Assembly: GCF_000483485.1 (NCBI RefSeq)
Contig: NZ_KI519609.1
Coordinates: 686,072 to 750,071, forward strand
DNA from: Thiomicrorhabdus chilensis DSM 12352
Lineage (GTDB): Bacteria > Pseudomonadota > Gammaproteobacteria > Thiomicrospirales > Thiomicrospiraceae
Direction: 5' to 3'
DNA length: 64,000 nt
The notes under the pieces: generated by a model
Told to the model about the DNA's origin: nothing
The model's database searches: none
Seen by the model: the letters and a program-made list of their open reading frames with translations, nothing else
Shown: in pieces, positions 14,266 to 30,385 of the stretch
Numbering within the stretch: position 1 is the first letter of the stretch
Layout of the letters: the number at the start of each line of letters is the position of its first letter
Program-made: the position numbers and the translations under genes

Positions 14266-16713
14266 TTAGACTGAGGCGTCTTTCCATTCAAGGTTACGAA
14301 GGCGTTGAATGTGGCCATTCCGATCCCAGTGGAATAAATACAACCATTCATTGTCGATCAGGTTTCTGACCGCTTCATGCTCTTTTGCCACCCGTTCAAT
14401 GGCTTCTTTGGGGGCGTCGATGTAGACGCTCAGACGCAGAGGTTCGTGCATCCAGTTTTCACCATCGTGCAGGGATTGCATGGGTAAGCCGATTCTTAAA
14501 TCTCCCCCGTTGCCTTCAAATACGCCGATGCCGCCATCCACTACATTATGCAGAACCTTGTTGCCGCTTCCGTAGATGTGGTTGTCACAAACGGATGCAT
14601 AATATTGAAGGTTGATCCAGTTGGTGACCACCATTGGGGCGGTCATGATCAGGGTGAGCAGACTGTTGTCTGTATCCTGCTCATAATCGTAATCGTGCAG
14701 GAAGGTGCGCCCCTCGAAATCCAGGCCGCGGGTTCGCGATCTGGGAGCCACGATGAATGCGGCGTTATTGGAAAGCCCCCATTCCGGACGTACCTGGGAC
14801 CAGTCCTTGGCGCGACGCTTGATGGATTGGTGCAGGGCTTGACCGTGCAGATGGGTTAAGCCGAGTCGGGTGGCTCTTTCCTGACGTGCCAAAGTCGTGG
14901 CCTGTTCTAACCAGCATTGCAGCTCGTTAGGGACTTGATCTATTCCGTAGCAGGTAAACTCATCGGTGGTGGTGTTGTGCATGGCGGCAATGAACTGGGT
15001 GTCTTCCGGGATAGTCATCCCTTGATTCACCAGGCCTTGTCGAACCTGGGGGTCATTGAGCAAGTAGGCCAGTACCCTGACGTTGACTTCACCGGTTTGT
15101 CCGCCGCAGGCACCGCAGTCGAGACCGGCAGCATGCGGATTGTTGCAACTGCTGCTGCCGTGACCCACCAGCATGACGTGTTTGGCCAGATTCTTATCCA
15201 GCCCCATCGCCTTGAGAATTCCGGCGGCCAGTTCGACTTTCTGCTGCAGGCTGACCGGTTCGCCATCCTGACTCAACTCAAAATCATCCTGCATGGGCAG
15301 ATTGTTGATCGGATGTGCATGTTCTTCTGGAAACAGGCTGTTGCGTAACAGTTTGAAGGCATACATCAGCCCAACGGATTCGACCATGCTGAAGGTGGCT
15401 GGAGGAGCATTCCCCCATTCGATCCAGCGGGCTTTTTTGTTAAGTTTTTGCTCGGTGGCGATCAGCGTGGTCGATTCGGTGATCGGACGAACACGAATTG
15501 CAGATTTGAGCAGGCCTGGTAGCTGAGGTCTGGCAACCTCGCTTCCAGTTGGCTGAAATTCGATTGGCAGTCCAAAGAAACCGGCAAAACCTAGGGTTTC
15601 AATGTCGGGATGCTGAGCCTCGAGCGCTCGGCGCATGACTTCCGATCGAACATCGATGCAGAAAGCCGCCTGAAGCAGGGGCTGGCTTTCGGTTTGGGTT
15701 TTCTTGGCGGAAGAGACGTGTTGCAATTGTTGATGCAATTGCGATTGATAGGCGATTTCCGCCGCACGTTGCCAAACCCATGCCTTGCTTTGTGATTCCT
15801 TGTGGGTCTCAATCAACTTGGGCAGGATAGTCAGTTGATGACGCCACATGACTTTGAGTTCGTTGAAAACGGAACGGTCACTGTTTTTTTGATGACGCCA
15901 CAGCACCCATTCCCAGGCCATGCGAATGGCCAGAAAGTCGAGCATGAGCTGGTTGTCATGTTGCTGAAGACCATCCTGCCATTTCAGATAGGCGACCCAA
16001 GAAGCCCAGCCGTTTACGTCCATCAAAAGCGCGTGGCTATAGTCGCCAATCTGGTGTGCGGGCACACCCAAGCCAGCCAAGGCTTCGGCCAGCAAGTCTT
16101 CGGCGCTGTCGGGCAAATCAAGAAATTGCTCTGTCAGGCCGTTTTCGGCCATGAGTATTTCGATACCTTTGTCTGAACGAGTCGAGGCCAGCCAGCTGGA
16201 ATAAAGTCCTTGATAGGTATTGGCATAGGATTCTGAAAGCGGTTTTTCGCGAAAAAAGTCCGCACAGAATTGACTGATCTGATGGGTGATTTCATCGCGC
16301 CAGGCCATTTTATACTTGCGGTCACGCCCGCTATCAACGAAGTCGCTGACGTTATGCCAGTGAGTATATTCGTCATCTTCCAGTAGGTAGCGTTCCAAGG
16401 ATTCCACACTTAGATCGGCATCCACTTCTTGAGCCGCCTGGCTGAGGTGTTGTGGCTGCAGGCTTTCCATCCAGACAGACTGATAATAGGATTTGGGCAT
16501 CAAGCAGTTGACCTGTGTCAATGCGGTCAGCTTGGCGGACACGTCACTGAAATGGTGATGGCGCATTTCCCACCAAGGGTTGACTGCAATCAACTCGTCC
16601 AGCGGCCAGGTGGGAGCGATGCGTTCACACGCTTGTCTAAGCTGTGTTATTTGAGATTCGTTCAAGTGTGGCGCAAGTGCTTGCGCCTGTGAAGCAAGTT
16701 GAGCGGATGTCAT
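14266..16713 (-). CDS. dabA: DabA, inorganic carbon transporter subunit (DUF2309/UPF0753)
   Basis: This 815-residue cytoplasmic subunit of the DabAB dissolved-inorganic-carbon accumulation complex resembles a beta-carbonic anhydrase. Candidate zinc ligands and the Asp are seen in AAFCIDVRSEVMRRALE (Cys and Asp, about residue 350) and in VGHGSSSCNNPHAAGLDCGACGG (His and Cys, about 530). The N-terminal PTWPLDELIAVNPWWEM is characteristic. The start at 16713 is chosen because AGAGGAG precedes that ATG and because it overlaps the dabB stop as ATGA; a longer frame runs back into dabB. Presence of this pair indicates CO2/bicarbonate acquisition by an autotroph. Confidence 0.93.
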   Translation of the reverse strand: MTSAQLASQAQALAPHLNESQITQLRQACERIAPTWPLDELIAVNPWWEMRHHHFSDVSAKLTALTQVNCLMPKSYYQSVWMESLQPQHLSQAAQEVDADLSVESLERYLLEDDEYTHWHNVSDFVDSGRDRKYKMAWRDEITHQISQFCADFFREKPLSESYANTYQGLYSSWLASTRSDKGIEILMAENGLTEQFLDLPDSAEDLLAEALAGLGVPAHQIGDYSHALLMDVNGWASWVAYLKWQDGLQQHDNQLMLDFLAIRMAWEWVLWRHQKNSDRSVFNELKVMWRHQLTILPKLIETHKESQSKAWVWQRAAEIAYQSQLHQQLQHVSSAKKTQTESQPLLQAAFCIDVRSEVMRRALEAQHPDIETLGFAGFFGLPIEFQPTGSEVARPQLPGLLKSAIRVRPITESTTLIATEQKLNKKARWIEWGNAPPATFSMVESVGLMYAFKLLRNSLFPEEHAHPINNLPMQDDFELSQDGEPVSLQQKVELAAGILKAMGLDKNLAKHVMLVGHGSSSCNNPHAAGLDCGACGGQTGEVNVRVLAYLLNDPQVRQGLVNQGMTIPEDTQFIAAMHNTTTDEFTCYGIDQVPNELQCWLEQATTLARQERATRLGLTHLHGQALHQSIKRRAKDWSQVRPEWGLSNNAAFIVAPRSRTRGLDFEGRTFLHDYDYEQDTDNSLLTLIMTAPMVVTNWINLQYYASVCDNHIYGSGNKVLHNVVDGGIGVFEGNGGDLRIGLPMQSLHDGENWMHEPLRLSVYIDAPKEAIERVAKEHEAVRNLIDNEWLYLFHWDRNGHIQRLRNLEWKDASV

Positions 16714-18266
16714 TTGATTAACTCCTCTTTTGGAATCTGCAATTTTTTGGGCTTGAAACGAACCGGAAGACGTGTGGGGTAGATTCGCAAGTTCAATCGC
16801 GTAACCCATTCATCCAGATAGAAGCCGGCATAAAATGCGCGCCAAACTCTGGTCATGGCAGGTCTGTTGGCGTGGTAGCGTAATAAGATATAGCCGATGA
16901 AGAAACCGATCAGCAATACCGCGACCCAAAGATCGCCCGCCCAGCCCACACTGGTGGTCATCGAGGAGGCAATCCAGTGAGCGCCGGTTTTTTCGAGGCT
17001 GTAAATCACCAGAAGCACCGCGGCAAGACCAAGCATGGAAACAATTGAAGCTTGATTTAAACGACTTTTTCTTTCTGCCAGCAACAGCGTCAGGGCGATG
17101 GCGAACAGTAGCCATGGACTGTAAGGTTCAGGCAGGTTCATGACCCAGATCAGGCCAATGACCAAGGCAATTGACAGCAGGCCTGCCAGGATCCAATCAG
17201 TGGTTGTTGGGGGTTGAGCTTTGGCCAGGCGACGTTTCATGGTGGATTCCACCTCGGATCCGGAATTTAAGAAGGCGTAGGCTTTGTAGCAGGAGTGGGC
17301 CACTAGATGCAGTAGTGCCAATTCAAAGAGTCCTAAAGCACATTCCACCAGCATTAAACCCATTTGCGACATGGTAGACCAAGCCAGCCTGACTTTGACG
17401 GTGGCACGAGTCATCATCACCAATGCAGCCAGTACGGTCGTGAGTCCACCTATAACCAGCAATAGCCATTGTGCCGAGTTGGAAAGCATGATTAAAGGGG
17501 CGAAGATAATCATCAAAAAACCGCCCAAGTTGATGATCCCCGCATGCAGTAAGGCGGAAACAGGTGTGGGGGCTTCAACGACTTGAATGAGCCAGCCATG
17601 CAGGGGCAATTGGGCACATTTTATTAGAGCAGCCATGGCCAAGAGTGTCGCCGCAAACTGGTCAAGATAACTCAGTTCTTTTGCAACGCTTAAGGTTTGG
17701 TAGATGTCGCTTATCAACCAGGTTTGATGTTGATAATAGAGCAGAAACATTCCGCCTAATAAACAAGCTTCCGCCAAACGGGCGAAAATGTATTTCTTGT
17801 GCGCTGCCAATACCGCTCTTTGACGCTCCGGGTAGAAAATCAGCAAACGGTGAAGGCTGATGCTGATCGAAATCCATGCGAGCATCATGAGAAGCATATG
17901 GTTGCTGATGACAACCAGGGTCACACTTCCCAGTGTGAGAAGCAGCCAACGTAAATATCGACGTTCTTCTTCGCGGTTTCCCACCATGTAAGCGCTGGAG
18001 TAGCGTATGTTGACAAAGGCAATGAAACTGATTAATCCAAGCATCACCAGGCTGACCGGAGAGTGGGTGATCCAGGTCATGTTTTTGCTTAAGGTAAGGC
18101 TGTCCATAACGGTCAGAGTGCCCAGAATGATAGAGATTGCTAAAGCCAGCAAACTGATATTCATGGCTAAACGCCAGTTTGCACGTCGCTCATTGGTTAA
18201 AGCCGTAATAAAGAATAACAGTGGAATCGCCAGCAAAAGCAGCGACCCAATCCATTGACTGTCCAT
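16710..18266 (-). CDS. dabB: DabB, membrane subunit of inorganic carbon transporter (NuoL-like)
   Basis: This 518-residue membrane protein of the proton-conducting antiporter family (NuoL/ND5, MrpA relatives) has about 13 hydrophobic helices. The conserved core LPLHGWLIQVVEAPTPVSALLHAGIINLGGFL (about residue 220-250) contains the Lys/His region used for cation translocation. In the Dab complex it is proposed to couple cation flow to bicarbonate formation by DabA. AAAGGGAA precedes the ATG. It overlaps dabA by 4 bases. A stray NADH dehydrogenase subunit is excluded by the DabA partner and by absence of other nuo genes. Confidence 0.92.
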   Translation of the reverse strand: MDSQWIGSLLLLAIPLLFFITALTNERRANWRLAMNISLLALAISIILGTLTVMDSLTLSKNMTWITHSPVSLVMLGLISFIAFVNIRYSSAYMVGNREEERRYLRWLLLTLGSVTLVVISNHMLLMMLAWISISISLHRLLIFYPERQRAVLAAHKKYIFARLAEACLLGGMFLLYYQHQTWLISDIYQTLSVAKELSYLDQFAATLLAMAALIKCAQLPLHGWLIQVVEAPTPVSALLHAGIINLGGFLMIIFAPLIMLSNSAQWLLLVIGGLTTVLAALVMMTRATVKVRLAWSTMSQMGLMLVECALGLFELALLHLVAHSCYKAYAFLNSGSEVESTMKRRLAKAQPPTTTDWILAGLLSIALVIGLIWVMNLPEPYSPWLLFAIALTLLLAERKSRLNQASIVSMLGLAAVLLVIYSLEKTGAHWIASSMTTSVGWAGDLWVAVLLIGFFIGYILLRYHANRPAMTRVWRAFYAGFYLDEWVTRLNLRIYPTRLPVRFKPKKLQIPKEELIK

Positions 18267-18657: not shown

Positions 18658-20943
18658 TTGTATTGCTCCTCTGCCCTGAAAAAGAAACATAAACCCCAAC
18701 CTCCTCTTTTACGTCAGTCGGTCATTGCTTTGGCATTGATCTCGATCAGTCAATCACCCATGGCTGAAGACAGGCTTGAGTTCAAGTCTCAAACCGTTTA
18801 TGGCGCAACCGGCTTATTGACCATTCCAACTGCGGATGTCATGGACTATGGCAATGTTTCAATGAGCTATAACAATTTTTTGAATCCGGAATACCAATCT
18901 TTAGATAACCGTGAAGCGCAGAACTTTTTGTTTGGTGTGGGCGTATTTCCTGGGCTGGAATTGTTTGGGCGGTTGGCCGAAGTACATGAGAAGGGTTATC
19001 AGACCCATACCTATGGCAATTTTGATAGTCGAGATTTGATTGGTAATGTGAAATATAAATTGCCTTTGCCGTCCAGTTGGCCTTCTTTTGCAGTGGGAAT
19101 TCAGGATGCGGCAGGTTTGGCTGTAAAAGAAAGGCGTTATTATGCGACTTCAACATTTCATAGCCGATTTGTCGACGCGACTTTAGGTTATGCCCAAAAA
19201 GCCTTGGACTCGCGCCATGATGAGATGCTGGATGGTGTATTTGCAGGCCTGGATGTAAAAGTAAGTTCGTTTGCAAAAATTCAAGCAGAGCATGACGGTT
19301 TGGAGCAACGTGCCGGAGTCGCCTTTAACTGGGATCAACCTTTTGGTTGGGATATGAACTTGATGGCCTCAAGTGTTTTGTATTCCTCTCTGGAAGATGA
19401 AGATCCCAGTTTCTCTATTGGTTTAAATATACCTTTGGGTCGAGCCTCGTCTAGCAAAAATGACTCGCCTGATTATAAAGCCGAACAAGCGAGTCAGACG
19501 GAATATATCTCTGATAACTCTAGCCAGAAAACGGCTTATATAGCCCAAATGTCTGGGGCTGAAGTGTCTTCTGTAGAGCGCCAAAATGCAGAAAAAACCG
19601 TATTGAATAGATTGGAAAGTGAATTTGCATTGTTTCCCGGAAATGAAGTTATTAATTCTGAAATTTACACTGAACAGGGCAATGTGGATGAACAGCTTAT
19701 GTCTTGGGCGGAAGGCTTTAAAGCTAAATTGATTGAGGCAGGGTTTGAGCATTTAACCTTCTCTTACGATCCAAACGCTTCGACTTTGTATCTTTCATAT
19801 CAGAATCGTGCTTATGCACATGGCGAGTTTGCCGCACTTAAAGCTTTAATGACAGAGCTTAAAAACCAGTCCGGAATTGAGCGATTCAAGCATATAGAAA
19901 TTCTGACCGTTAAAGAAGGGCAGCCGCTTATGGCCTTGTCGGTTGAGGTTGACTGGTTGTTGGAAAATGAAAAAGGTATAAGTAAGTCACCGACGTCAAC
20001 GCAGTTTAGGGTGCAGTTCGCGAATCAGTTTCATCATAAGGGCCGTATATTGGCCTCATCAGGCAAGCAGGAGTGGCTGGACATAGAAGTTTCGCCTGCG
20101 TTTAAGGCTTTCTATGGTCATGAATATGATATTTGGGATTATTCACTGGCTTTAAGAACCAATTTCAAGGTTCCGTTATGGCAAGGTGCTAATGCCAGTC
20201 TGGTGCATGAAATGCCGGTTGCCCACAGCTATAATTTCAATGACGGCGAGGTGTTCGACGACAGTCGTCATGAAAGTCGTTGGAGTGAACTGATGTTGCA
20301 CCAAACAATCCAGCCTCTGCCAAGTCTTTTGAACACCACTTCGGTAGGGCGTTTGCATGTTTATGATCGTCCTTATAATGCCTTGATCAACACCACTCGC
20401 TGGTATGGCTGGGGCGGTCAGCATCAGTTTTACGCGCAGTTTGGGAAACTGTACGGCGAACTTTATGGGCCTAATGATTACCGTCTTGCCGATCGTGAGA
20501 TTGAGGTGTTGGGATATGAGTATTTGTGGAGCTCTTTGAACTTGGCCTTGAACTATGAGTATGGTCAATATTATGAGCAGGATCTTTCCAGCAAGGTGAC
20601 GCTCAAGTCCTTTTTGGGAGATACCACGGTCAATCTTCAATATGTCCAATCGGACTTAGGCTGGTCTAAAGTCGGCGTAGGCATCAGCTTCCCGTTTTGG
20701 GGGCAAAAGAAAATTGAATTGGGGCCGGTGTCGATCTCCGGTGATCAAAATTGGACGCATCAAATCGTCACCACGGTGGATGATCCATCTGGAGAAGGTC
20801 GTAACCTAACCAGCGCCAATGCCAACTATGTTAATGTCGGTTTGAATCCTTGGATTTCTCAAACCTTGCATCAGGAAGGAATGCAGCATGGGCGTTTCAC
20901 GCCGGATTACATTCAAAAACATGTCGATTATTTGCTGAATTGA
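18658..20943 (+). CDS. YjbH-like outer-membrane beta-barrel protein for exopolysaccharide
   Basis: This protein of about 761 residues belongs to the YjbH/GfcD family of outer-membrane proteins found with exopolysaccharide and capsule genes. After a hydrophobic signal (SVIALALISISQSPMA, about residues 21-36) the mature part begins with the family hallmark GATGLLTIPTADVMDYGNVS (about 50-70). The C-terminal half is rich in alternating aromatic strands expected of a barrel (EVLGYEYLWSSLNLALNYEYGQYY, WSKVGVGISFPFWGQ). The only in-frame start giving the signal is TTG 18658, so the exact start is uncertain. It is the first gene of a group including a lipoprotein, an SLBB export protein and a Wzz protein. 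Confidence 0.82.
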   Translation: MYCSSALKKKHKPQPPLLRQSVIALALISISQSPMAEDRLEFKSQTVYGATGLLTIPTADVMDYGNVSMSYNNFLNPEYQSLDNREAQNFLFGVGVFPGLELFGRLAEVHEKGYQTHTYGNFDSRDLIGNVKYKLPLPSSWPSFAVGIQDAAGLAVKERRYYATSTFHSRFVDATLGYAQKALDSRHDEMLDGVFAGLDVKVSSFAKIQAEHDGLEQRAGVAFNWDQPFGWDMNLMASSVLYSSLEDEDPSFSIGLNIPLGRASSSKNDSPDYKAEQASQTEYISDNSSQKTAYIAQMSGAEVSSVERQNAEKTVLNRLESEFALFPGNEVINSEIYTEQGNVDEQLMSWAEGFKAKLIEAGFEHLTFSYDPNASTLYLSYQNRAYAHGEFAALKALMTELKNQSGIERFKHIEILTVKEGQPLMALSVEVDWLLENEKGISKSPTSTQFRVQFANQFHHKGRILASSGKQEWLDIEVSPAFKAFYGHEYDIWDYSLALRTNFKVPLWQGANASLVHEMPVAHSYNFNDGEVFDDSRHESRWSELMLHQTIQPLPSLLNTTSVGRLHVYDRPYNALINTTRWYGWGGQHQFYAQFGKLYGELYGPNDYRLADREIEVLGYEYLWSSLNLALNYEYGQYYEQDLSSKVTLKSFLGDTTVNLQYVQSDLGWSKVGVGISFPFWGQKKIELGPVSISGDQNWTHQIVTTVDDPSGEGRNLTSANANYVNVGLNPWISQTLHQEGMQHGRFTPDYIQKHVDYLLN

Positions 20944-21097
20944 AGTAATGCATTGCTTAATAAAGAATTTTTGCGTGTGTTTGCGTAAATAGAATTGACA
21001 AAATAAATTGTAAAAGGTGTAATTTCATAGAATTTGAATGGTTTTGTGGTTGCAGACAAATGCGGCTATGAACAGACTTAATGAAAGAGGAAAAATC

Positions 21098-22054
21098 ATG
21101 AAGGCAAAGAAGATAGTATTGGCCATGTTTGCATCGGCCGCGATTGCGAGTATGACTGGGTGTTTTAGCAGTAGCAGTAGCAGTAGTTCAGATCCGGATA
21201 CGACTACAGAAAGTGGTTCTGTTGTTGACTGGTACATTGAAGGGGCGTTTGTATTTGCCGATTTCAATGATAATGGCGTTTACGATGCAGCTTCAGATGT
21301 GGCCGCAGAGGCTCTAACGGATGCGAATGGTGATTTCACTCTTAATATTCCAAGTTCTATGGGATCGGATTATGTGATCGTTTCCCAGGGTGGTACGGAT
21401 ACGGCAACCGGAACGCCGTTCAATGGTGTGCTTAAGGCTGCCCCAGGCGCAACAGCCGTTACTCCTATCTCAACTCTAGTTCAGACAGTAGGTGATGAAG
21501 CGCTGGTACGTTCTTTCTTGGGATTGAGTGCGGATGCGGATCTGTCTGCTGACCCGGCAACCAGCACGGAGCTGTTTGCGGCTTCTCAGCAAATCGTTTA
21601 CTTGGTGTCTGCGCTTGCGGGACTGGTTGATTTGGCTACGATCGAACCTGCAGGTGTGGATGATCAGTTATTGACCTACTCCAACAGTGTGGTTGAAGCA
21701 TTGTCAGCTTTGATTGCCGGTGGTGCGACGACTTTAGATGCCACTTTGATTGAAAATACAATTCAGGCCGTAGCCACAGATTTGACAGGGGCAGCAACTG
21801 ATTTTGATGCACTTTTCAGTAAGACAACCACTATTCTTAATAAAGTTGATGATATTGGCGATGATGCATTGCTACTAACTGAAGTGACGGTTGCCGGAGC
21901 TACGTCAATCCAGGATGACGTTGATAATTTTGTTGATAATATCGATGATACTGTGCCAGGCGGTTTGGTACCGGTAGCAGTTGATGCAACAGAGTATTTG
22001 GATAACGATGACGTGGACTACATCACAGGTGTAACCGGTACGGAAACAATTTAA
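21098..22054 (+). CDS. Secreted lipoprotein with poly-serine linker, unknown function
   Basis: The 318-residue protein starts with a lipoprotein signal (IVLAMFASAAIASMTGC; Cys about 23), followed immediately by a run of eight Ser and an acidic linker. Residues 45-90 contain a calcium-loop-like or carboxypeptidase-regulatory-like repeat (ADFNDNGVYDAASD, TDANGDFTLNIPS). The rest is acidic, Ala/Asp/Thr-rich and lacks cysteines, as in surface-exposed bacterial proteins. ATG 21098 is chosen because GAGGAAAA precedes it and the signal peptide begins there; an upstream ATG gives a non-signal extension. Position between the YjbH and SLBB genes suggests a role in polysaccharide export or surface attachment. 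No named family was recognised. Confidence 0.7.
   Translation: MKAKKIVLAMFASAAIASMTGCFSSSSSSSSDPDTTTESGSVVDWYIEGAFVFADFNDNGVYDAASDVAAEALTDANGDFTLNIPSSMGSDYVIVSQGGTDTATGTPFNGVLKAAPGATAVTPISTLVQTVGDEALVRSFLGLSADADLSADPATSTELFAASQQIVYLVSALAGLVDLATIEPAGVDDQLLTYSNSVVEALSALIAGGATTLDATLIENTIQAVATDLTGAATDFDALFSKTTTILNKVDDIGDDALLLTEVTVAGATSIQDDVDNFVDNIDDTVPGGLVPVAVDATEYLDNDDVDYITGVTGTETI
21167..21187 (+). repeat. Hexanucleotide AGCAGT microsatellite in lipoprotein gene
   Basis: Three AGCAGT units plus a further AGT encode the poly-Ser stretch directly after the lipidated Cys. The unit is a multiple of three, so slippage would change linker length without shifting the frame. Confidence 0.8.
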
Positions 22055-22059
22055 GAATT

Positions 22060-22109
22060 GTTTTACACAAAAAAAAACCTCCTTCGGGAGGTTTTTTTTT
22101 GTGTAAAAC
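22060..22109. terminator. Very strong terminator with UUCG loop
   Basis: A perfect 23-base stem (22060-22082 with 22087-22109) closes on the tetraloop TTCG; the inner GC core CCTCC/GGAGG is flanked by nine A and nine T. It starts 5 bases after the lipoprotein stop and would isolate it from the SLBB gene. Confidence 0.92.
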
Positions 22110-22183
22110 CAGCTTTTAAGTAGGTTTTTTAATAAAAATATGCTTATATAATTTGCTTATTCTAAATAATAAAAACGAATATT

Positions 22184-24718
22184 TTGGAGATGGGATTGGT
22201 GGTGTGTTTGGCTTTGAAAAAAATAAGGCAATCGAATTGGTTGCTGATGTTGGTTTTTTTAAGTTTGCTGAGTGGGGTGGCGAGTGCTTCTACTCCCGAC
22301 TTGAAGCAGATTGAACTGTTTCAATCTTTGCCCAAAGCCCAACAGCAAAAATTGCTTGAGTCCCAAGGGCTCAGTCGGGATCTGTTGAATCCCATTGCAC
22401 CAGAACAAAGCGAATTGGAACCCGTTAAAGATACGGTTCAACCTCTTTCTTTTGATAAAGAAAAGGGCTTGGAGGATTCAGCATGGCAAAGTAAATCAGA
22501 AGGTTTTGATGAAACCTCACTAAAACTCAAGCGATTCGGTTCCGAATTGTTTGCAGGTAAGCCCACCACTTTTGCCCCCGTGAATGATATTCCGGTTCCG
22601 ACCGATTATGTGTTGGGGCCTGGCGATCAGCTGAAGGTTCAATTGTTTGGAGCCAAGAATCATGTTTATGAGTTGGTGATTGACCGTAACGGCCAAGTCA
22701 ATTTTCCAGAAATTGGCCCGGTCAATTTGGCCGGTTTGAGTTTTTCTGAAGCCAAAGTGGCGTTATCTAAGCGTGTTGAAAACCTAGGTATGGGGGTGAA
22801 TGCTAGTATCACGATGGGCAATTTGCGCTCATTCCGGATTTTTGTCATGGGAGAGTCCAGAACTCCGGGGTCCTATTTGGTGAGCGGCATGGCGACGATG
22901 ACTCATGCGCTGTATGTAAGTGGCGGAATATCCGACATCGGAACCTATCGCAACATTCAATTGAAGCGAAAAGGAAGGCTTATCGCGAGTTTGGATCTGT
23001 ATGATCTTCTGGTGAAGGGGGATAGTCAGGATGATGTACGGCTGCAACCGGGCGATACCGTTTTTATTCCGACGGCTGGAAGTTTGATTTCCCTTCGAGG
23101 AGAAGTGAGCAGGCCTGGTATTTATGAACTGAAAAACGAAAGCCGTCTGGAGAGCCTTCTTGCTCTTGCTGGTGGCCTTAAAGCGACCGCCTACAAGAAA
23201 GATGTTTTGGTGACTCGCATTGCAAAGAATGGCTTAGCCAACGTTAAAAGCATCGATTTGAGTACCAAACAAGGAATGCGTTCTCTATTGCACAATGGTG
23301 ATGAGATTGACGTGAAACGTGTCTCTGAGGATTTGAATAACGCGATAGATGTGGTTGGTGAGGTGACGCACCCTGGAACCTATTCCTGGTCGGAAGGGCT
23401 TTCTTTGGGGCGTCTTTTGAATGGTTATCGTGATTTTAAGCGTCAAGCCGACCTGGGTTATCAGATCATTCTCCGTCAGAAACAAATCGGCAGCGCTTAT
23501 GAAGTCATTACTACTGATTGGTCGAAAATTCATCAGGGGCGTCATGAGGATGTTTTGCTGTGGCCTCAAGATCAGATATTCATATTGAATCGTGACGACA
23601 GTGATTTGCGTCGAGAATTCATTGATTTGGTATTGGAAAAACTCCAACAGCAGGCAACCAAAGAAAATGTGTCTAATGTGGTTTCTGTGAGTGGAATGGT
23701 GCGTTTTCCGGGTTCCTATCCGTTAGGGAAAGCTGACCGCATTCAAGACCTTATTCGTGCCGCAGGCGGCTTAAGAGAACAGGCAATGCTGAATGGCACG
23801 GATTTGGTGCGTTATGAAGTGGCCGAGGGTGAAAAAAGGGAAGTGGAACGTATCCATTTCAATTTGGATTTGGCGATGCAGGGCGATAGCCAGAATAACT
23901 TTCTTTTACAGCCTTTTGATCAATTAAGCATCAAGCAGGTGTCGGACTGGTCTGATGCGGCACAGCAGGTCACAATTAAAGGCGAAGTCCGCTATCCCGG
24001 TACCTTTACGGTTTCTCCCGGAGAAACGCTGGCCTCAGTGATTGAGCGTGCCGGAGGCTTTACCGAGTGGGCGGCCCCTGAAAACACGGTGTTCACGCGT
24101 GAGCAGTTAAAGGTTCAGGAGGAACGTGAGTTAGCTCAGCTGGCCATAGAGCTTGAGAAAAACCTCTTGTTGGCGGCGCGTCGCGATGCCGGAATCATGG
24201 AGAAGGATACCGGGCCGGCGATGATAGCCATGGGGCAGGCTTTGATTGATAAGATCAAGCAGACGCCGGCCATCGGACGACTGGTTGTCGGTTTCGATCC
24301 TGATAAGTCTAAGCGTTATGCGTCGACCATGGCGGTAGAGATGCGGGATGGTGATGTGCTTTATGTGCCTAAACGTTCCGACGAAGTGGTGATTATGGGT
24401 GAGGTGTCGCGAACCATTTCGGTGATACATGAAGAGGGCAAACGTGCGACCGAATACATTGCCATGAGCGGTGGTTTGAGTAAACGTGCTGATGCGAGTT
24501 CGATTTACGTTGTACACGGTGACGGGGCCATTGACCGACTTGAGCTGGGTTGGTTCAGCACAGACGAACATCTTAAAATCCTGCCTGGGGACACCATTGT
24601 GGTGCCAATGGATGTGGAAAGCATCAATCCGATTATAACTTGGACTAATGTATCCAAAATATTGGCTAACTTCGCGGTTTCCGCCGCTACCTTGAAAACG
24701 ATTGGGGTGTTTGATTGA
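22184..24718 (+). CDS. Multi-SLBB polysaccharide export protein (Wza family)
   Basis: This 844-residue protein has a signal peptide (LLMLVFLSLLSGVASAS), the spacer QIELFQSLPKAQQQKLLESQ common in this export subgroup, a polysaccharide-export domain (TDYVLGPGDQLKVQLFGAKN, about residue 140-220), and about six SLBB repeats of the form GEVxxPGxY (for example GESRTPGSY, GEVSRPGIY, GEVTHPGTY, GMVRFPGSY, GEVRYPGTF). No lipobox Cys is evident, unlike classical Wza. It likely forms a periplasm-spanning translocation channel. The N-terminal few residues are uncertain because GTG codons follow the first ATG. Its stop overlaps the start of the Wzz gene by one base. Confidence 0.87.
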   Translation: MEMGLVVCLALKKIRQSNWLLMLVFLSLLSGVASASTPDLKQIELFQSLPKAQQQKLLESQGLSRDLLNPIAPEQSELEPVKDTVQPLSFDKEKGLEDSAWQSKSEGFDETSLKLKRFGSELFAGKPTTFAPVNDIPVPTDYVLGPGDQLKVQLFGAKNHVYELVIDRNGQVNFPEIGPVNLAGLSFSEAKVALSKRVENLGMGVNASITMGNLRSFRIFVMGESRTPGSYLVSGMATMTHALYVSGGISDIGTYRNIQLKRKGRLIASLDLYDLLVKGDSQDDVRLQPGDTVFIPTAGSLISLRGEVSRPGIYELKNESRLESLLALAGGLKATAYKKDVLVTRIAKNGLANVKSIDLSTKQGMRSLLHNGDEIDVKRVSEDLNNAIDVVGEVTHPGTYSWSEGLSLGRLLNGYRDFKRQADLGYQIILRQKQIGSAYEVITTDWSKIHQGRHEDVLLWPQDQIFILNRDDSDLRREFIDLVLEKLQQQATKENVSNVVSVSGMVRFPGSYPLGKADRIQDLIRAAGGLREQAMLNGTDLVRYEVAEGEKREVERIHFNLDLAMQGDSQNNFLLQPFDQLSIKQVSDWSDAAQQVTIKGEVRYPGTFTVSPGETLASVIERAGGFTEWAAPENTVFTREQLKVQEERELAQLAIELEKNLLLAARRDAGIMEKDTGPAMIAMGQALIDKIKQTPAIGRLVVGFDPDKSKRYASTMAVEMRDGDVLYVPKRSDEVVIMGEVSRTISVIHEEGKRATEYIAMSGGLSKRADASSIYVVHGDGAIDRLELGWFSTDEHLKILPGDTIVVPMDVESINPIITWTNVSKILANFAVSAATLKTIGVFD

Positions 24719-25731
24719 TGAGTCACCACCAGAATACACATGAGAGAGTCAATCAGTCGGAAGGAGTAAGACTAACTGCTGCTGACATGGATGATGAAAT
24801 CGATTTGGCTGAATTGTTTTCGGTTTTGGCAAGACGTAAATGGTTCATTTTTCTATTTAGTTTTGCCGCAATGCTTTTTGCAGCTTTGATTGCCTTGCAG
24901 CTCCCTAATCAGTATCAGGCTAAGGTGCTTATGGTGCCGGTCAATACCGGGTCATCAGGTGGCCTGTCAGGTCTAGCTTCCAAATACGGTGGTTTAGCAA
25001 GCATGGCCGGTATCGATCTGCCTTCTTCACAGGGAGACCTTAGTCAGCAGGCTATCAGTGTGTTGAAGTCCAGAAAATTTATTAATGATTTTATTGTCTC
25101 TAATAAACTTAAGCCTGTTCTATTTTATGAAAGCTGGGATCAAGAGCGCCAGGCTTGGAAAGAAAAAAAACCAGGCTTGATTGATGAAGTCAAAGCTTCA
25201 CTGGGGTTGCCTGATTCCAATCCGGTTAATTATGCTGGGCAAGAGTCGCTTACGCCGGGTGAGCCCTCTTTATGGAAAGCCTATAAGCTGTTTGATAAGG
25301 AGGTGATGAGTGTCAGTGAAGACAAGAAAAGTTCGGCTATCACCCTCTCGATTCAGTGGTATGACCCGGTTAAGGCTCGTGATTGGGCAAACCAGATTGT
25401 GGATGATTTGAATGAAAGGCTTCGCAATGAAACCATCGAAAGTTCAGAACGTACCATCAAGTATCTTAAAGAGCAGATTCAGCAGACCAATTTATTGGAG
25501 TTGCGTGAAATTTTATTTGGCTTGATTGAAGAGCATGTTAAAAACATTACGCTTGCAAAAACTCATGCCGAGTATGTTTTCAAGGTGATTGATCCTGCTG
25601 TGGTACCGGAAGAGAAATCTAAACCTAAAAGAGGCTTGATGGTCGCTGTAGCTTTTGTTCTGGGGTTGATGTTATCCATTTTTATTGTGTTGATTCAGAA
25701 TTGGAGAGCGAATTTAAGCCAGCCTAAATAA
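24718..25731 (+). CDS. Wzz/GNVR chain-length determinant-type inner membrane protein
   Basis: The 337-residue protein has two membrane helices: one near residues 40-60 (FIFLFSFAAMLFAALIAL) preceded by DLAELFSVLARRKW, and one near the C-terminus (GLMVAVAFVLGLMLSIFIVLI), preceded by the proline-containing DPAVVPEEKSKPKR typical of Wzz. The periplasmic part is helical, consistent with polysaccharide co-polymerases. No tyrosine-kinase domain is fused. It overlaps the SLBB gene by one base and is translationally coupled to it. A terminator follows, so the export group ends here without any glycosyltransferase or Wzx/Wzy. Confidence 0.87.
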   Translation: MSHHQNTHERVNQSEGVRLTAADMDDEIDLAELFSVLARRKWFIFLFSFAAMLFAALIALQLPNQYQAKVLMVPVNTGSSGGLSGLASKYGGLASMAGIDLPSSQGDLSQQAISVLKSRKFINDFIVSNKLKPVLFYESWDQERQAWKEKKPGLIDEVKASLGLPDSNPVNYAGQESLTPGEPSLWKAYKLFDKEVMSVSEDKKSSAITLSIQWYDPVKARDWANQIVDDLNERLRNETIESSERTIKYLKEQIQQTNLLELREILFGLIEEHVKNITLAKTHAEYVFKVIDPAVVPEEKSKPKRGLMVAVAFVLGLMLSIFIVLIQNWRANLSQPK

Positions 25732-25885: not shown

Positions 25886-26626
25886 ATGGATACGAATCGA
25901 CTCATTCTCGCTTTTCTTCGTCATGGTGAATACCACCAGAGCTTGAGCACGCCCAGTGCTTTTCAACCTTATCCACTGACCGATGGCGGTCGGCTGCAGT
26001 CGGTTTCAGCGGCTCAGCAAATAATTGCGTTTGCCGAGCATCAAGCATTGTCAATCCATCCTGTCATTCACAGTTCCAACCTGCTTAGGGCTTGGCAAAC
26101 CGCCGATGTTATCGCACAAAACCTTGCCTTTAAGGCATTGATTCCAGAACGGAAAGTGGAGTCTGACGCTCAATTGAATGAGCGCTCTGTCGGGGCTTTG
26201 GCCAACCTGACCTTGAGTCAGATCGAAACGGTTGTGAAAAACGACCCTCGACATAATCCTTTGCCCGAGGGGTGGAAGTCTGACAGTGCGTTTTGTTTGC
26301 CGGTTGATGGCGCTGAATCATTGCTGCAGGCGGGTCAAAGAGTAGCCGATTTTATCGAATCGCAATGCATTTCGTTGTTGTCCGAGCAGGATGAGGATTG
26401 TCTTAAAATCATGGTCGGGCATGGCGCGGCCTTTCGTCATGCCGCTTATTTGATGGGACTGTTGTCGTTTGAACAGGTCTCCCGCTATTCGATGCACCAC
26501 GCTTCTCCGATCTATTTTGAATTGACTCTGGGCGCAAATCATTCCGTTTCTTGGCGGCACTTGGCCGGTGACTGGAAGCTCAGGTATACCGATTCAAACG
26601 ATTCTCAACCAATCCTTATTGATTAA
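25886..26626 (+). CDS. Histidine phosphatase superfamily protein (SixA/phosphoglycerate-mutase-like)
   Basis: This 246-residue protein has the catalytic RHG motif near the N-terminus (AFLRHGEYHQ, His about 13), the second arginine in SSNLLRAWQTADVIA (about 68), an acid in LNERSVGAL and the second histidine in VGHGAAFRHAAYLMG (about 183). These form the phosphohistidine active site. It is longer than SixA (about 160) and could act on small phosphorylated molecules or a protein; the substrate cannot be read from the sequence. It is followed 11 bases later by a metallophosphatase, and the two are probably an operon. Confidence 0.82.
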   Translation: MDTNRLILAFLRHGEYHQSLSTPSAFQPYPLTDGGRLQSVSAAQQIIAFAEHQALSIHPVIHSSNLLRAWQTADVIAQNLAFKALIPERKVESDAQLNERSVGALANLTLSQIETVVKNDPRHNPLPEGWKSDSAFCLPVDGAESLLQAGQRVADFIESQCISLLSEQDEDCLKIMVGHGAAFRHAAYLMGLLSFEQVSRYSMHHASPIYFELTLGANHSVSWRHLAGDWKLRYTDSNDSQPILID

Positions 26627-26637
26627 ACAAGGAAAAC

Positions 26638-27855
26638 ATGATGCATTCGATGTTACAAAGTTCTATTGAATGGAAGCCTGAATTTGACTTTAAGGTGCCG
26701 GTTGATAACTGGATGGCACCCCAAAAAGACACCTACTTCTTTTGCGATTTGCATGCGGATGCTGAGGCTTTTTTGCGTTCCTTGAAACTCAGTGGGTTGG
26801 TTGCCGAAACAAGCAGTCTGGAATCCGTCAAATTGACCGCTAACGGTCACAACGGAAAGGTTGTCATCGGTGGCGATTGCTTTGATAAGGGTCCCAGTAA
26901 TCTTGCGCTTTTTAGGCTGATTGGAGCCCTTAGAGCGTCCGGTCTTGACCTGGTCTTGTTGGCTGGAAATCATGACATTCGAATTTACGCAGGCCTGTTG
27001 GCAATGAATTTCATGGATGATGTGCGTCAATGCCATTTTTTTGTCCGCATGGGACGTAAAACTGCCAAATTGTTTGCCGAGATTTTTCAGCAGTATTGTC
27101 AAGGAGAGTCCATTCTTGAGAAGTCGGACGAACAGATTGAAGCGGAATTGTTTCCTACTCAGGAATGGTTTGAACATTTTCCGGAGTATGCATCCGGCTT
27201 TATGACGGAGAAAAAGATTCGAAAAGAGATTAAGCAGATCCGCAAAAAGCGTGACGATTTTATGCAGGCCTGTCAGGAATACGGATTGAGTTTGCAGCAG
27301 GTTTATCTGGCTGCGCGTAAAGCCAAATCTCTGTTTGTCGATAAACAGGGTGAGTTCAGTTGGTTCTTCAATGAATTAGATCTGATGCATGTCTCAGGCA
27401 GTTATGTGTTCAGTCATGCCGGTTTGGATGATCGCATGGCTTGTCGATTGGTGAATGAGGGTAGTGAAGCTTTGAATGTGGAGTTCCGCCAGCAACTGTC
27501 TCAGGGGCGGATATTCCAAATGTACTACAGCGAATTTGGCAATGTGTTCCGAACCAAATACCGGGAAAACGATTGGCCGCTGACGGAGGCCGGAACCCAG
27601 TGTCTGCGTGATCATCACTTATTTGCGATTGTGAACGGGCATCGAAGCCATGAGGCCGGCCAGCAACTGTTTGTGCGATATGGCATGCTGAACTTTGAAT
27701 GCGATACCCAGCTCAATGCCAATTGTCGTCAAAAAGCGAATATGCCAGTGCCAGGAGAAGCGGTGACCATATTCAGTTCTGATGGTTTAGTTTCCGGGCT
27801 GAGTGGCGATTTTCCGGCGATAAAACGTTTTCACCCTAATCAGTTGAAGTCTTGA
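26638..27855 (+). CDS. Calcineurin-like metallophosphoesterase
   Basis: The 405-residue protein carries a full set of metallophosphoesterase motifs: FCDLHADAEAFLR (Asp-x-His, about residue 32), GGDCFDKGPSN (about 79), LLAGNHDIRIYAG (about 105), FSHAGLDDR (about 258) and NGHRSHEAG (about 334). The GDxxDKG form is that of PPP-type protein phosphatases and ApaH/PrpE enzymes. An insertion of about 110 mostly helical residues lies between the third and fourth motifs. AAGGA precedes ATG 26638. The substrate is unknown; its pairing with a histidine phosphatase suggests a shared signalling or nucleotide role. Confidence 0.83.
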   Translation: MMHSMLQSSIEWKPEFDFKVPVDNWMAPQKDTYFFCDLHADAEAFLRSLKLSGLVAETSSLESVKLTANGHNGKVVIGGDCFDKGPSNLALFRLIGALRASGLDLVLLAGNHDIRIYAGLLAMNFMDDVRQCHFFVRMGRKTAKLFAEIFQQYCQGESILEKSDEQIEAELFPTQEWFEHFPEYASGFMTEKKIRKEIKQIRKKRDDFMQACQEYGLSLQQVYLAARKAKSLFVDKQGEFSWFFNELDLMHVSGSYVFSHAGLDDRMACRLVNEGSEALNVEFRQQLSQGRIFQMYYSEFGNVFRTKYRENDWPLTEAGTQCLRDHHLFAIVNGHRSHEAGQQLFVRYGMLNFECDTQLNANCRQKANMPVPGEAVTIFSSDGLVSGLSGDFPAIKRFHPNQLKS

Positions 27856-28257: not shown

Positions 28258-28453
28258 GTCTCCTGCCGAGAATAAATCACTTTTATTGGATTTAACTATC
28301 AAATCGTTGTGCAAACGGGAGTCAGGCCTAAACAAGCTATCGAGTTTATTAGTGGCTTGATAAAAAAATGTGTTTTGACCTTTTGATAAGGTTTCTTAAT
28401 AATCCACATTCACAAATTTTTATGAGTTAGTCCGCTTTGAAGAGAAATAGTTG

Positions 28454-30385
28454 ATGGCGATATTGAAGAGTCTTGATTACAGGGAAAGGTGGGTCATTTA
28501 CGTCAGGTCGGTTTTGCTGGCTATGCTGTTGATCATGCCGTTTGCCTATATACAGTTCAGCCAGGTGCAGGCGCACATGGAGTGGTCGTATTTTATTATG
28601 CCCGCTTTGGCCTCGTTGTTTGTGGCGCTGCTGCTGATTAAGATCAAGCTGTTGCAGTCGGATATGGAACGTAAGAGTTCGTTGTTCAAAGCTGCAGTGG
28701 ATTTCAGTCTGGAATTCACCTATGTTCGCTCGGTAAAGGGCGAGTATGAATATGTGTCGCCTGCGGTACTGGAGATGACCGGTTATACACAGGATGAATT
28801 TTATGCCAAGCCCAGCTTTATGGATTCTATTATCCATCCGGATGATCGGGATTTGTGGCATGGCCATGTACACCACGTTAACAGTAATGGCGAGGCGGAA
28901 AATATTGAGTTACGGATTGTCACCAAAAGTGGGGCGATTCGATGGATACAGCATTTGTGCGGCCCGGTACATAATAAAAAGGGCAAAGTCATCAGTATCC
29001 GTTCCACCAATATCGATATTACGGAGCGCCGCCTGACCGACGACAAGCTCAAGAAAATGGGCTTTTATGACCCCTTAACCAATTTGCCAAACCGACGCTA
29101 TATTTCGGATTATCTGGCCGATTTGATTTTGAACGATCACACCGAAGAGGAGAGCCATGAGTTTGCGGTCATGTTCCTGGATTTGAACCGCTTTAAATAC
29201 GTGAACGACGCTCACGGCCATACCGTTGGCGATAAGTTGCTCAAACAGGTCGCTCAGCGTTTTCAGAACAGCTGCATGAGCACCAATAACGGAGTGATAA
29301 GCCGCTTTGGTGGCGACGAGTTCGTCATTATCAAAACCGGAGATGTGTCGGTAGAGGCGATCCAGGATTGCGTGATGCAGATGAACCAGATGCTGGAAGA
29401 GCCTTTTGTTGTCCAAGGACACAACTTGAGTGTCGGCGGCAGTGTTGGGGTGGCCGTCTATCCGCATGACGGCATGGATTCGGAAATCTTGATCAAGAAT
29501 GCCGATGCGGCGATGTTTCAGGCCAAGAATCAGGGCTTGACGATGAAGTTCTTTTCGCAGGAAATGGCCGAGCACGCCTCTAATATGGTGGGCTTGCAGA
29601 CCCAGCTGAAAAATGCCTTGCATGATGGCTTGATTCAGCCGCATTATCAGCCTTTGGTGGATATGAAAACCGGGCAGACCATCGGGGTTGAGGTATTGGC
29701 CCGTTGGATCAATGTCGACGGCAGTCAGGCTCCTTCGCCCGGTGTGTTTATTCCGGTTTCGGAGGAAACGGGGCTGATATGGTCGCTGAGCGAAGTCATG
29801 ATTTCACAGGCGGGACGACAGATCAAAAAATGGCAGGAGCAGGGTATTAATATGAAATACTCCATCAATGTCTCCGCCCGGCAGTTCGCGGACGATAACT
29901 TCTGTAACCAGGCCATTAACCAATTTAAGCGTTTGGGTGTCGACTCCTCTTCCGTGCAGATAGAGCTGACCGAAACGGTATTGTTGAACAATATTGAGCG
30001 CAGTATCGAAAAAATCCACCAGTTGAAGGCCGAAGGTTTTTCCATCGCCTTAGATGATTTTGGAACCGGCTTTGCCTCTTTGCACTATTTAACGCAATTC
30101 CCGCTGGATACCTTGAAGGTTGATCGTGCTTTTGTGGTCAATATACTCGAAGACAAACGCCAGTATGCGATCGCACGTTCCATTATCAATCTGGCGCACG
30201 ATCTTGATTTAGTGGTGGTGGCCGAAGGCATTGAAACCGAAGAGCAGCGCCAATTATTGGCCGACTTGGGGTGTGATATCGGTCAGGGTTATCTGTTCAG
30301 TCGCCCGGTCGCGCCTGAAAAAATTTCCTTAAGCCATATTGGTGGTCCCGACAGTTACATCCCTTTTGGTGCGGTCATTCAATAG
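28454..30385 (+). CDS. Membrane PAS-GGDEF-EAL cyclic-di-GMP protein
   Basis: This 643-residue signalling protein has two N-terminal membrane helices (about residues 15-60), a PAS domain with PAC tail (about 75-200, FKAAVDFSLEFTYVRS to IDITERR), a GGDEF domain (about 205-370, intact RFGGDEFVII) and an EAL domain (about 385-635). The EAL motif reads EVL (VEVLARW), a natural variant. Other phosphodiesterase residues are in place: ELTETVL, LDDFGTGFASL, KVDRAFV and AEGIETEEQ. It could both make and break c-di-GMP, with PAS tuning. It stands alone between tRNAs and queA; control of the polysaccharide genes nearby is plausible but unproven. ATG 28454 is preferred to the TTG before it. Confidence 0.93.
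   Translation: MAILKSLDYRERWVIYVRSVLLAMLLIMPFAYIQFSQVQAHMEWSYFIMPALASLFVALLLIKIKLLQSDMERKSSLFKAAVDFSLEFTYVRSVKGEYEYVSPAVLEMTGYTQDEFYAKPSFMDSIIHPDDRDLWHGHVHHVNSNGEAENIELRIVTKSGAIRWIQHLCGPVHNKKGKVISIRSTNIDITERRLTDDKLKKMGFYDPLTNLPNRRYISDYLADLILNDHTEEESHEFAVMFLDLNRFKYVNDAHGHTVGDKLLKQVAQRFQNSCMSTNNGVISRFGGDEFVIIKTGDVSVEAIQDCVMQMNQMLEEPFVVQGHNLSVGGSVGVAVYPHDGMDSEILIKNADAAMFQAKNQGLTMKFFSQEMAEHASNMVGLQTQLKNALHDGLIQPHYQPLVDMKTGQTIGVEVLARWINVDGSQAPSPGVFIPVSEETGLIWSLSEVMISQAGRQIKKWQEQGINMKYSINVSARQFADDNFCNQAINQFKRLGVDSSSVQIELTETVLLNNIERSIEKIHQLKAEGFSIALDDFGTGFASLHYLTQFPLDTLKVDRAFVVNILEDKRQYAIARSIINLAHDLDLVVVAEGIETEEQRQLLADLGCDIGQGYLFSRPVAPEKISLSHIGGPDSYIPFGAVIQ

Follow-up and report, generated by a model that had tools for sequence, protein, structure and literature searches.

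The 64,000-nt window analyzed here (positions 686072–750071 of the 2.44-Mb genome of Thiomicrorhabdus chilensis DSM 12352, held in two contigs) carries at 18658–25731 (704729–711802 in genome coordinates) a set of four genes encoding a divergent outer-membrane double barrel of the YjbH/GfcD family, a lipoprotein, an outer-membrane polysaccharide export (OPX) protein, and a Wzz-like polysaccharide co-polymerase (PCP). These genes probably handle the envelope-export stage of a Wzx/Wzy-type pathway for a surface polysaccharide, in which the lipoprotein would be a fixed partner of YjbH and take the place of GfcA or YjbE. The new point is the lipoprotein with its C-terminal Thr/Gly tail. Tails of this kind recur on lipoproteins and small proteins encoded next to other YjbH genes, and this recurrence gives a hint of their purpose. 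The four genes had been listed in a preliminary description of this DNA, and their presence was borne out by the open reading frames (ORFs) and by Pfam.

Components of the export set

The YjbH-family gene (18658..20943, forward strand, listed with a TTG start) encodes 761 aa, and its product matched PF06082 with 50 bits against a cut-off of 24. In its AlphaFold model (pLDDT, the predicted local distance difference test score, 72), 12 strands at residues 66–259 and about 13 strands at 463–708 enclose an alpha/beta domain at about 342–439; this modeled arrangement of two barrels around an alpha/beta domain is the layout published for GfcD (PMC8592465). No match was found among PDB sequences, and the best local Foldseek matches of the model were outer-membrane barrels, including KdgM and FapF; a FapF-like half has been noted in GfcD (PMC9603273).

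The lipoprotein gene (21098..22054, forward strand, with ATG 21098, MKAKK.., as its likely start) encodes 318 aa comprising a signal peptide, a lipobox (..MTGC), a poly-Ser linker, a beta domain, a helical domain, and the C-terminal Thr/Gly tail DYITGVTGTETI, whose codons lie at 22016..22051 on the same strand. The protein has no family in Pfam or NCBIfam; it remained below every Pfam cut-off (GEVED, 20.5 of 24.4; CarboxypepD_reg, 20.0 of 32.3) and did not match the GfcB/YjbF family in either database, nor did phmmer find a GfcB-like ORF adjoining YjbH. Its structural model is of low confidence (pLDDT 66), with a beta domain at 33–112, helices at 121–282, and disordered ends. Comparison with PDB sequences, and of the model by Foldseek, gave nothing firm: no Foldseek match fell below an E-value of 0.15, and a local match resembling an X module was weak.

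The OPX gene (22184..24718, forward strand) encodes 844 aa with Poly_export (66.6 bits), SLBB (144.8 bits in four stretches), SLBB_2 (131.4 bits in five stretches), and, at the C-terminus, a GfcC domain (PF06251, 27.1 bits, cut-off 20), GfcC being found only as this fused domain. There are thus at least five SLBB-type repeats, and the six reported in the preliminary description are roughly correct when the GfcC-like repeat is included; its remark that the protein lacks a lipobox was also accurate, the N-terminus being an ordinary-looking signal peptide. The protein showed sequence matches to solved Wza, and no Wza_C match in Pfam. Its last segment is conserved across 18 aligned proteins, with a hydrophobic moment of 0.27–0.38 in the ten computed, and would suit an amphipathic helix. 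With the whole Class 2B domain set (Poly_export, SLBB, and GfcC) present, the protein is assigned by its domains to the Class 2-type OPX proteins, GfcC being fused to it. A genome-wide SLBB search returned five stretches, four in this protein and one in another ORF, which we take to be NuoF-like; on this evidence, the gene is the sole OPX gene of the genome. It overlaps by four bases the Wzz-like gene (24715..25731, forward strand), whose 338-aa product contains the Wzz (PF02706, 48.6 bits) and GNVR (37 bits) domains alone and is too short for a kinase domain.

Pairing of the lipoprotein with YjbH

We surveyed 24 loci with a divergent YjbH gene, of which 20 came from family and class searches and four from a later search of the phylum. 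A lipoprotein-like gene adjoins YjbH at 17 of them, 13 in the first set and all four in the later one. The 13 include a gene apparently frameshifted at its start (G388), another that runs off its contig (G345), and a protein that fails the lipobox pattern while being homologous to two that pass it (G135). At the seven loci without a lipoprotein (G012, G011, G024, G145, G395, G086, and G268), a contig end lies close by in three (G011, G024, and G395), and the YjbH frame is broken in G268. At 22 ordinary YjbH/GfcD loci with a recognized YjbH, nine of which have a GfcB-like neighbor and seven of which are bare YjbH–OPX–Wzz trios, none of these lipoproteins was present; two further ordinary loci (L167 and L171), at which the ORF caller found no YjbH, were excluded. 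G029, G040, and G059 each have a complete gfcBCD-like set together with OPX and Wzz, and a scan of named genomes with the YjbH alignment yielded five loci.

The lipoproteins fall into at least two sequence groups. The family of the window protein stands beside YjbH in seven genomes (the window genome, G000, and G047, G046, G055, G054, G215, and G485), a second group comprises those of G135, G345, G201, and G050, and those of G176, G388, G723, G749, and G591 are divergent. Lipoproteins outside the window family likewise stand beside YjbH and end in a tail of this sort. Among 62 genomes of the family, relatives of the lipoprotein were found in 15 (mostly weak), of the divergent-type YjbH in nine, and of the OPX protein (E ≤ 0.001) in 28. 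Of 369 genomes sampled across the class, 18 were matched by the lipoprotein profile and 11 by the YjbH profile; only G000 and G215 were matched by both, and the two genes are adjacent in each. Judging from these comparisons, the lipoprotein very probably belongs to the system. The preliminary description had raised this as a possibility, and the survey of co-occurrence supports it: the lipoprotein was not confined to unrelated contexts, and no full synthesis locus with another export set came to light.

The Thr/Gly tail

Of ten lipoproteins on the YjbH side, nine have at least three TG/GT pairs in their last 25 residues, and that of G215 has two. GfcA-like small proteins in several gfc operons likewise end in Thr/Gly stretches, and the ends of E. 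coli GfcA and YjbE are Thr-rich. When this first metric, which was set on the discovery loci, was applied to 15 later loci, it flagged eight of 224 ORFs, all within 1.6 kb of YjbH, at eight loci; when the metric was set, its control matches included two of the paired lipoproteins, present as copies at further loci, and a third protein encoded directly beside a YjbH gene (L174). At that same locus (G342, L174:7096–8211), an Ig-like surface protein with a long TG repeat at its end and a negative lipobox test directly follows YjbH.

Under a refined rule, an ORF had to begin with a signal peptide-like segment and contain three or more TG/GT/TT pairs among its final 15 residues. This rule placed a tail within 2.51 kb of YjbH at all 15 later loci, with 16 of 224 ORFs passing, a count that is not blind because those loci had already been seen once when the rule was fixed. 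The discovery loci were scanned at 36 of 44, without L167, L171, G011, G345, G395, G268, G024, and the window, which was scanned separately; 18 of 397 ORFs passed, all near YjbH, at 17 loci. In the window, one of 47 signal peptide-like ORFs passed, namely the lipoprotein itself. The corresponding control counts were 1 of 279 in twenty 20-kb stretches picked regardless of YjbH, 0 of 73 in 99 kb of the same genome beyond the window, 0 of 89 in seven stretches that have an OPX gene but no YjbH, and 2 of 95 in nine stretches where relatives of the lipoprotein lie apart from YjbH, none of these nine relatives carrying the tail. Some passes look spurious, namely ORFs of 70 and 79 aa in one scan and one of 80 aa that is the sixteenth match of the later loci.

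We read the tail as a link between the lipoprotein and GfcA/YjbE, which would make the lipoprotein a lipid-anchored counterpart of GfcA. It is possible, rather than probable, that the YjbH/GfcD partners, both GfcA/YjbE and the non-homologous lipoproteins, all act through this tail, which would serve either as an address for the barrel or as a site for O-linked polysaccharide; in the latter case, the capsule would be both exported and anchored in glycolipoprotein form. A PglL-type O-glycosyltransferase was sought in the 555-aa Wzy_C protein encoded at 2129 kb, in which the Wzy_C domain alone was found; therefore, protein O-glycosylation gains no support from that protein. We found no account of a shared tail, or of a lipoprotein partner of divergent YjbH, in the accessible text of open-licence papers. 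GfcA is needed for the group 4 capsule of enteropathogenic E. coli (EPEC), where deletion of gfcA alone abolished the capsule and was complemented (PMC3853201), yet GfcA and GfcD are described as uncharacterized (PMC11494523). A tail recurring on unrelated partners of these barrels offers a short, mutable element for probing the function of both, and among multi-barrel outer-membrane proteins the GfcD homologs are the most numerous group (PMC11494523).

Synthesis genes and gene order in relatives

The preliminary description had found no synthesis genes beside the export set and suggested that the polymer might be made elsewhere. Both statements agree with the genome: its nine matches to PF00534, its one to PF02397, and its two to PF04932 all lie outside the window, PF00535 and the flippase families being outside this genome-wide search. 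Pfam matches among ten ORFs of the region indicate that a Wzx/Wzy-type synthesis locus is situated at about 639–660 kb, 44–66 kb upstream of the export set. It contains a Wzx-like gene (639068–640636, PF01943, 57 bits; 66 kb from the set), three of the PF00534 matches (641–649 kb), the single PF02397 sugar transferase (phosphoglycosyl transferase, PGT) at 650266, genes for an EpsG-like protein (PF14897, 33 bits) and Polysacc_synt_2, and a Wzy_C gene (659067–660368; 44 kb from the set), the other Wzy_C gene being at 2129812. A second Wzz gene lies nearby at 675022.

Two side features of this region may be recorded. A gene for a Fic-domain protein (PF02661; G000:C1:650968–652494, L089:4968–6494) lies inside the locus, between the sugar transferase and Polysacc_synt_2 genes, and a gene resembling an ATP-dependent DNA ligase in Pfam (L089:16906–17925) ends the polysaccharide region. 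In two relatives, DNA ligase-like ORFs (L062:14795–15727 and L063:5577–6557) adjoin a ComEA-like ORF, both identified by eye.

Two genomes of the same genus, G047 and G046, were informative about gene order. In G047, the YjbH, lipoprotein, OPX, and Wzz genes stand in the window order directly after a synthesis cluster with a PGT gene. In G046, OPX and Wzz adjoin a PGT gene, and the YjbH–lipoprotein pair lies 19 kb away beside the PAS-GGDEF-EAL gene that is also found in the window. In G055 (L105:5030–12567), the pair is 2–3 kb from a KpsD-like OPX gene and apparent ABC-transporter capsule export genes, which suggests, from gene context, that the pair can serve different polymer pathways.

Proposed pathway and alternative explanations

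Repeat units made by the locus at 639–660 kb would be flipped and polymerized, with the Wzz-like protein setting chain length and docking on the OPX protein, which, with its GfcC-like end and putative terminal helix, would carry the chain across the periplasm to the outer membrane. There, the YjbH double barrel would serve the chain or a chain-bound product. The lipoprotein, as the fixed partner of divergent YjbH, would take the place of GfcA/YjbE, held by its lipid in the outer membrane, and may offer its Thr/Gly tail to the barrel; the role of the tail is the least proven step.

Several observations weigh against this reading. The tail rule took its refined form only once the later loci had been seen. 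Of these 15 loci, 11 contain ordinary GfcA/YjbE, proteins already known to be rich in Thr, and nine of the 11 come from one family (f183); therefore, the independent part of the test consists of four divergent loci from four families. The rule was failed by 19 of the 36 earlier YjbH loci, including all seven bare trios, in three of which a small protein encoded close by has a short Ser/Thr/Gly stretch at its end. The window lipoprotein itself has one of the weaker tails, with three TG/GT pairs, and the lipoproteins are not all alignable. Both the separation in G046 and the position of the pair beside an ABC-type capsule export operon in G055 indicate that the pair may not belong specifically with this OPX.

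These last arrangements, together with the absence of an adjoining Wzz or OPX gene of the window type in G055 and G054 and the resemblance of the N-terminal YjbH barrel to FapF and KdgM in Foldseek, would fit two independent modules that adjoin incidentally, of which YjbH and the lipoprotein display or secrete the lipoprotein or a protein product, and OPX and Wzz serve a polysaccharide. We consider this unlikely, however, because all four genes are kept in the same order in G000 and G047, the lipoprotein and YjbH adjoin other OPX/PCP genes in G215, G201, G591, and G485, and seven of the 22 ordinary YjbH loci are direct YjbH–OPX–Wzz trios. It is less likely still that the lipoprotein is an unrelated surface protein lying in the operon by chance; such an explanation, which we regard as very improbable, would draw on the related domains seen in nine inspected relatives away from YjbH, but those relatives lack the tail that the YjbH-side members carry, and the pair persists both where it has moved relative to OPX–Wzz (G046) and in other families of the class.

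The set could also export a second polymer while the 639–660 kb locus makes only the O-antigen of lipopolysaccharide (LPS), as the second Wzz gene (675022) and the Wzy_C proteins (659067 and 2129812) could serve the latter alone, a further point against our reading. This appears rather improbable, given the single PF02397 PGT of the genome (the glycosyltransferase family 2 families being outside the genome-wide search) and the synthesis cluster with a PGT gene that adjoins the set in G047. The polymer exported by the four-gene pathway is likely, but not proven, to be the product of the 639–660 kb locus; the genome's sole OPX gene is consistent with this.

Other features of the window

The c-di-GMP enzyme gene mentioned in the preliminary description is present downstream of the set, as a PAS-GGDEF-EAL gene at 28451–30385. 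The relatives do not establish it as a member of the set: the 20-kb stretch holding the set in G047 contains no c-di-GMP gene, and in G046 the YjbH–lipoprotein pair is the only part of the set kept beside it. Between the Wzz-like gene and this gene, at 25886–27855, lie histidine-phosphatase (His_Phos_1) and metallophosphoesterase-like genes. YjbH is preceded by a gene at 16710–18266 that is presumably dabB-like, and in G050 (L178:6873–15650), YjbH and its different lipoprotein likewise adjoin a gene that we take to be dabB-like. Promoter and terminator scans predicted five promoters, fewer than in shuffled sequences (mean 13.4), and 13 terminators, slightly more than in shuffles (mean 9.2), and the matches in a search of plasmid records were all below 60% identity.

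Comparison with known systems

The closest comparison is with the E. coli group 4 capsule (gfcABCDE-etp-etk) and its paralog yjbEFGH, which likewise have a GfcD/YjbH double barrel, a lipoprotein, an OPX protein, a PCP, and synthesis genes away from the export genes; a GfcC domain occurs in both, and the Thr-rich tail of one of the E. coli proteins is similar in kind to that of the window lipoprotein. The group 4 polymer is the O-antigen of the strain and comes from a separate locus. In that system, the GfcB lipoprotein binds GfcC and GfcD, and GfcA, with 30% Thr, has been speculated to carry O-antigens and go to GfcD (PMC8592465). In contrast, the window YjbH is divergent, GfcC forms one protein with a Class 2 OPX rather than standing free beside a Class 1 GfcE, there is no GfcB-family lipoprotein, the tail is on the lipoprotein rather than on a small GfcA, and the PCP has no kinase and no Etp, its neighbors being the His_Phos_1 and metallophosphoesterase-like genes. 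The window set is therefore best described, from its gene content, as a variant that is predicted to work like the Gfc exporter and not as a member of it, because GfcB, free GfcC, and a kinase PCP are lacking.

Among the OPX classes defined in PMC9603273 (Microbiol Spectr 2022), the KpsD-like Class 2 shares with the window protein the order Poly_export–SLBB(n)–GfcC; Class 2B also has a C-terminal helix, to which the conserved last segment of the window protein may correspond. The table of that paper gives YjbH homologs near five OPX genes of Class 2A and 19 of Class 2B, and the accessible part of its account gives no description of either the lipoprotein or the tails. In the EpsX/EpsY composite translocon (PMC9601211), an OPX protein is also paired with an outer-membrane barrel; however, EpsY is a short OPX that lacks a membrane-spanning part, and EpsX is a barrel of 18 strands, whereas the window set combines a long OPX protein (844 aa, with Poly_export, SLBB repeats, GfcC, and a terminal helix-like segment) with a double barrel.

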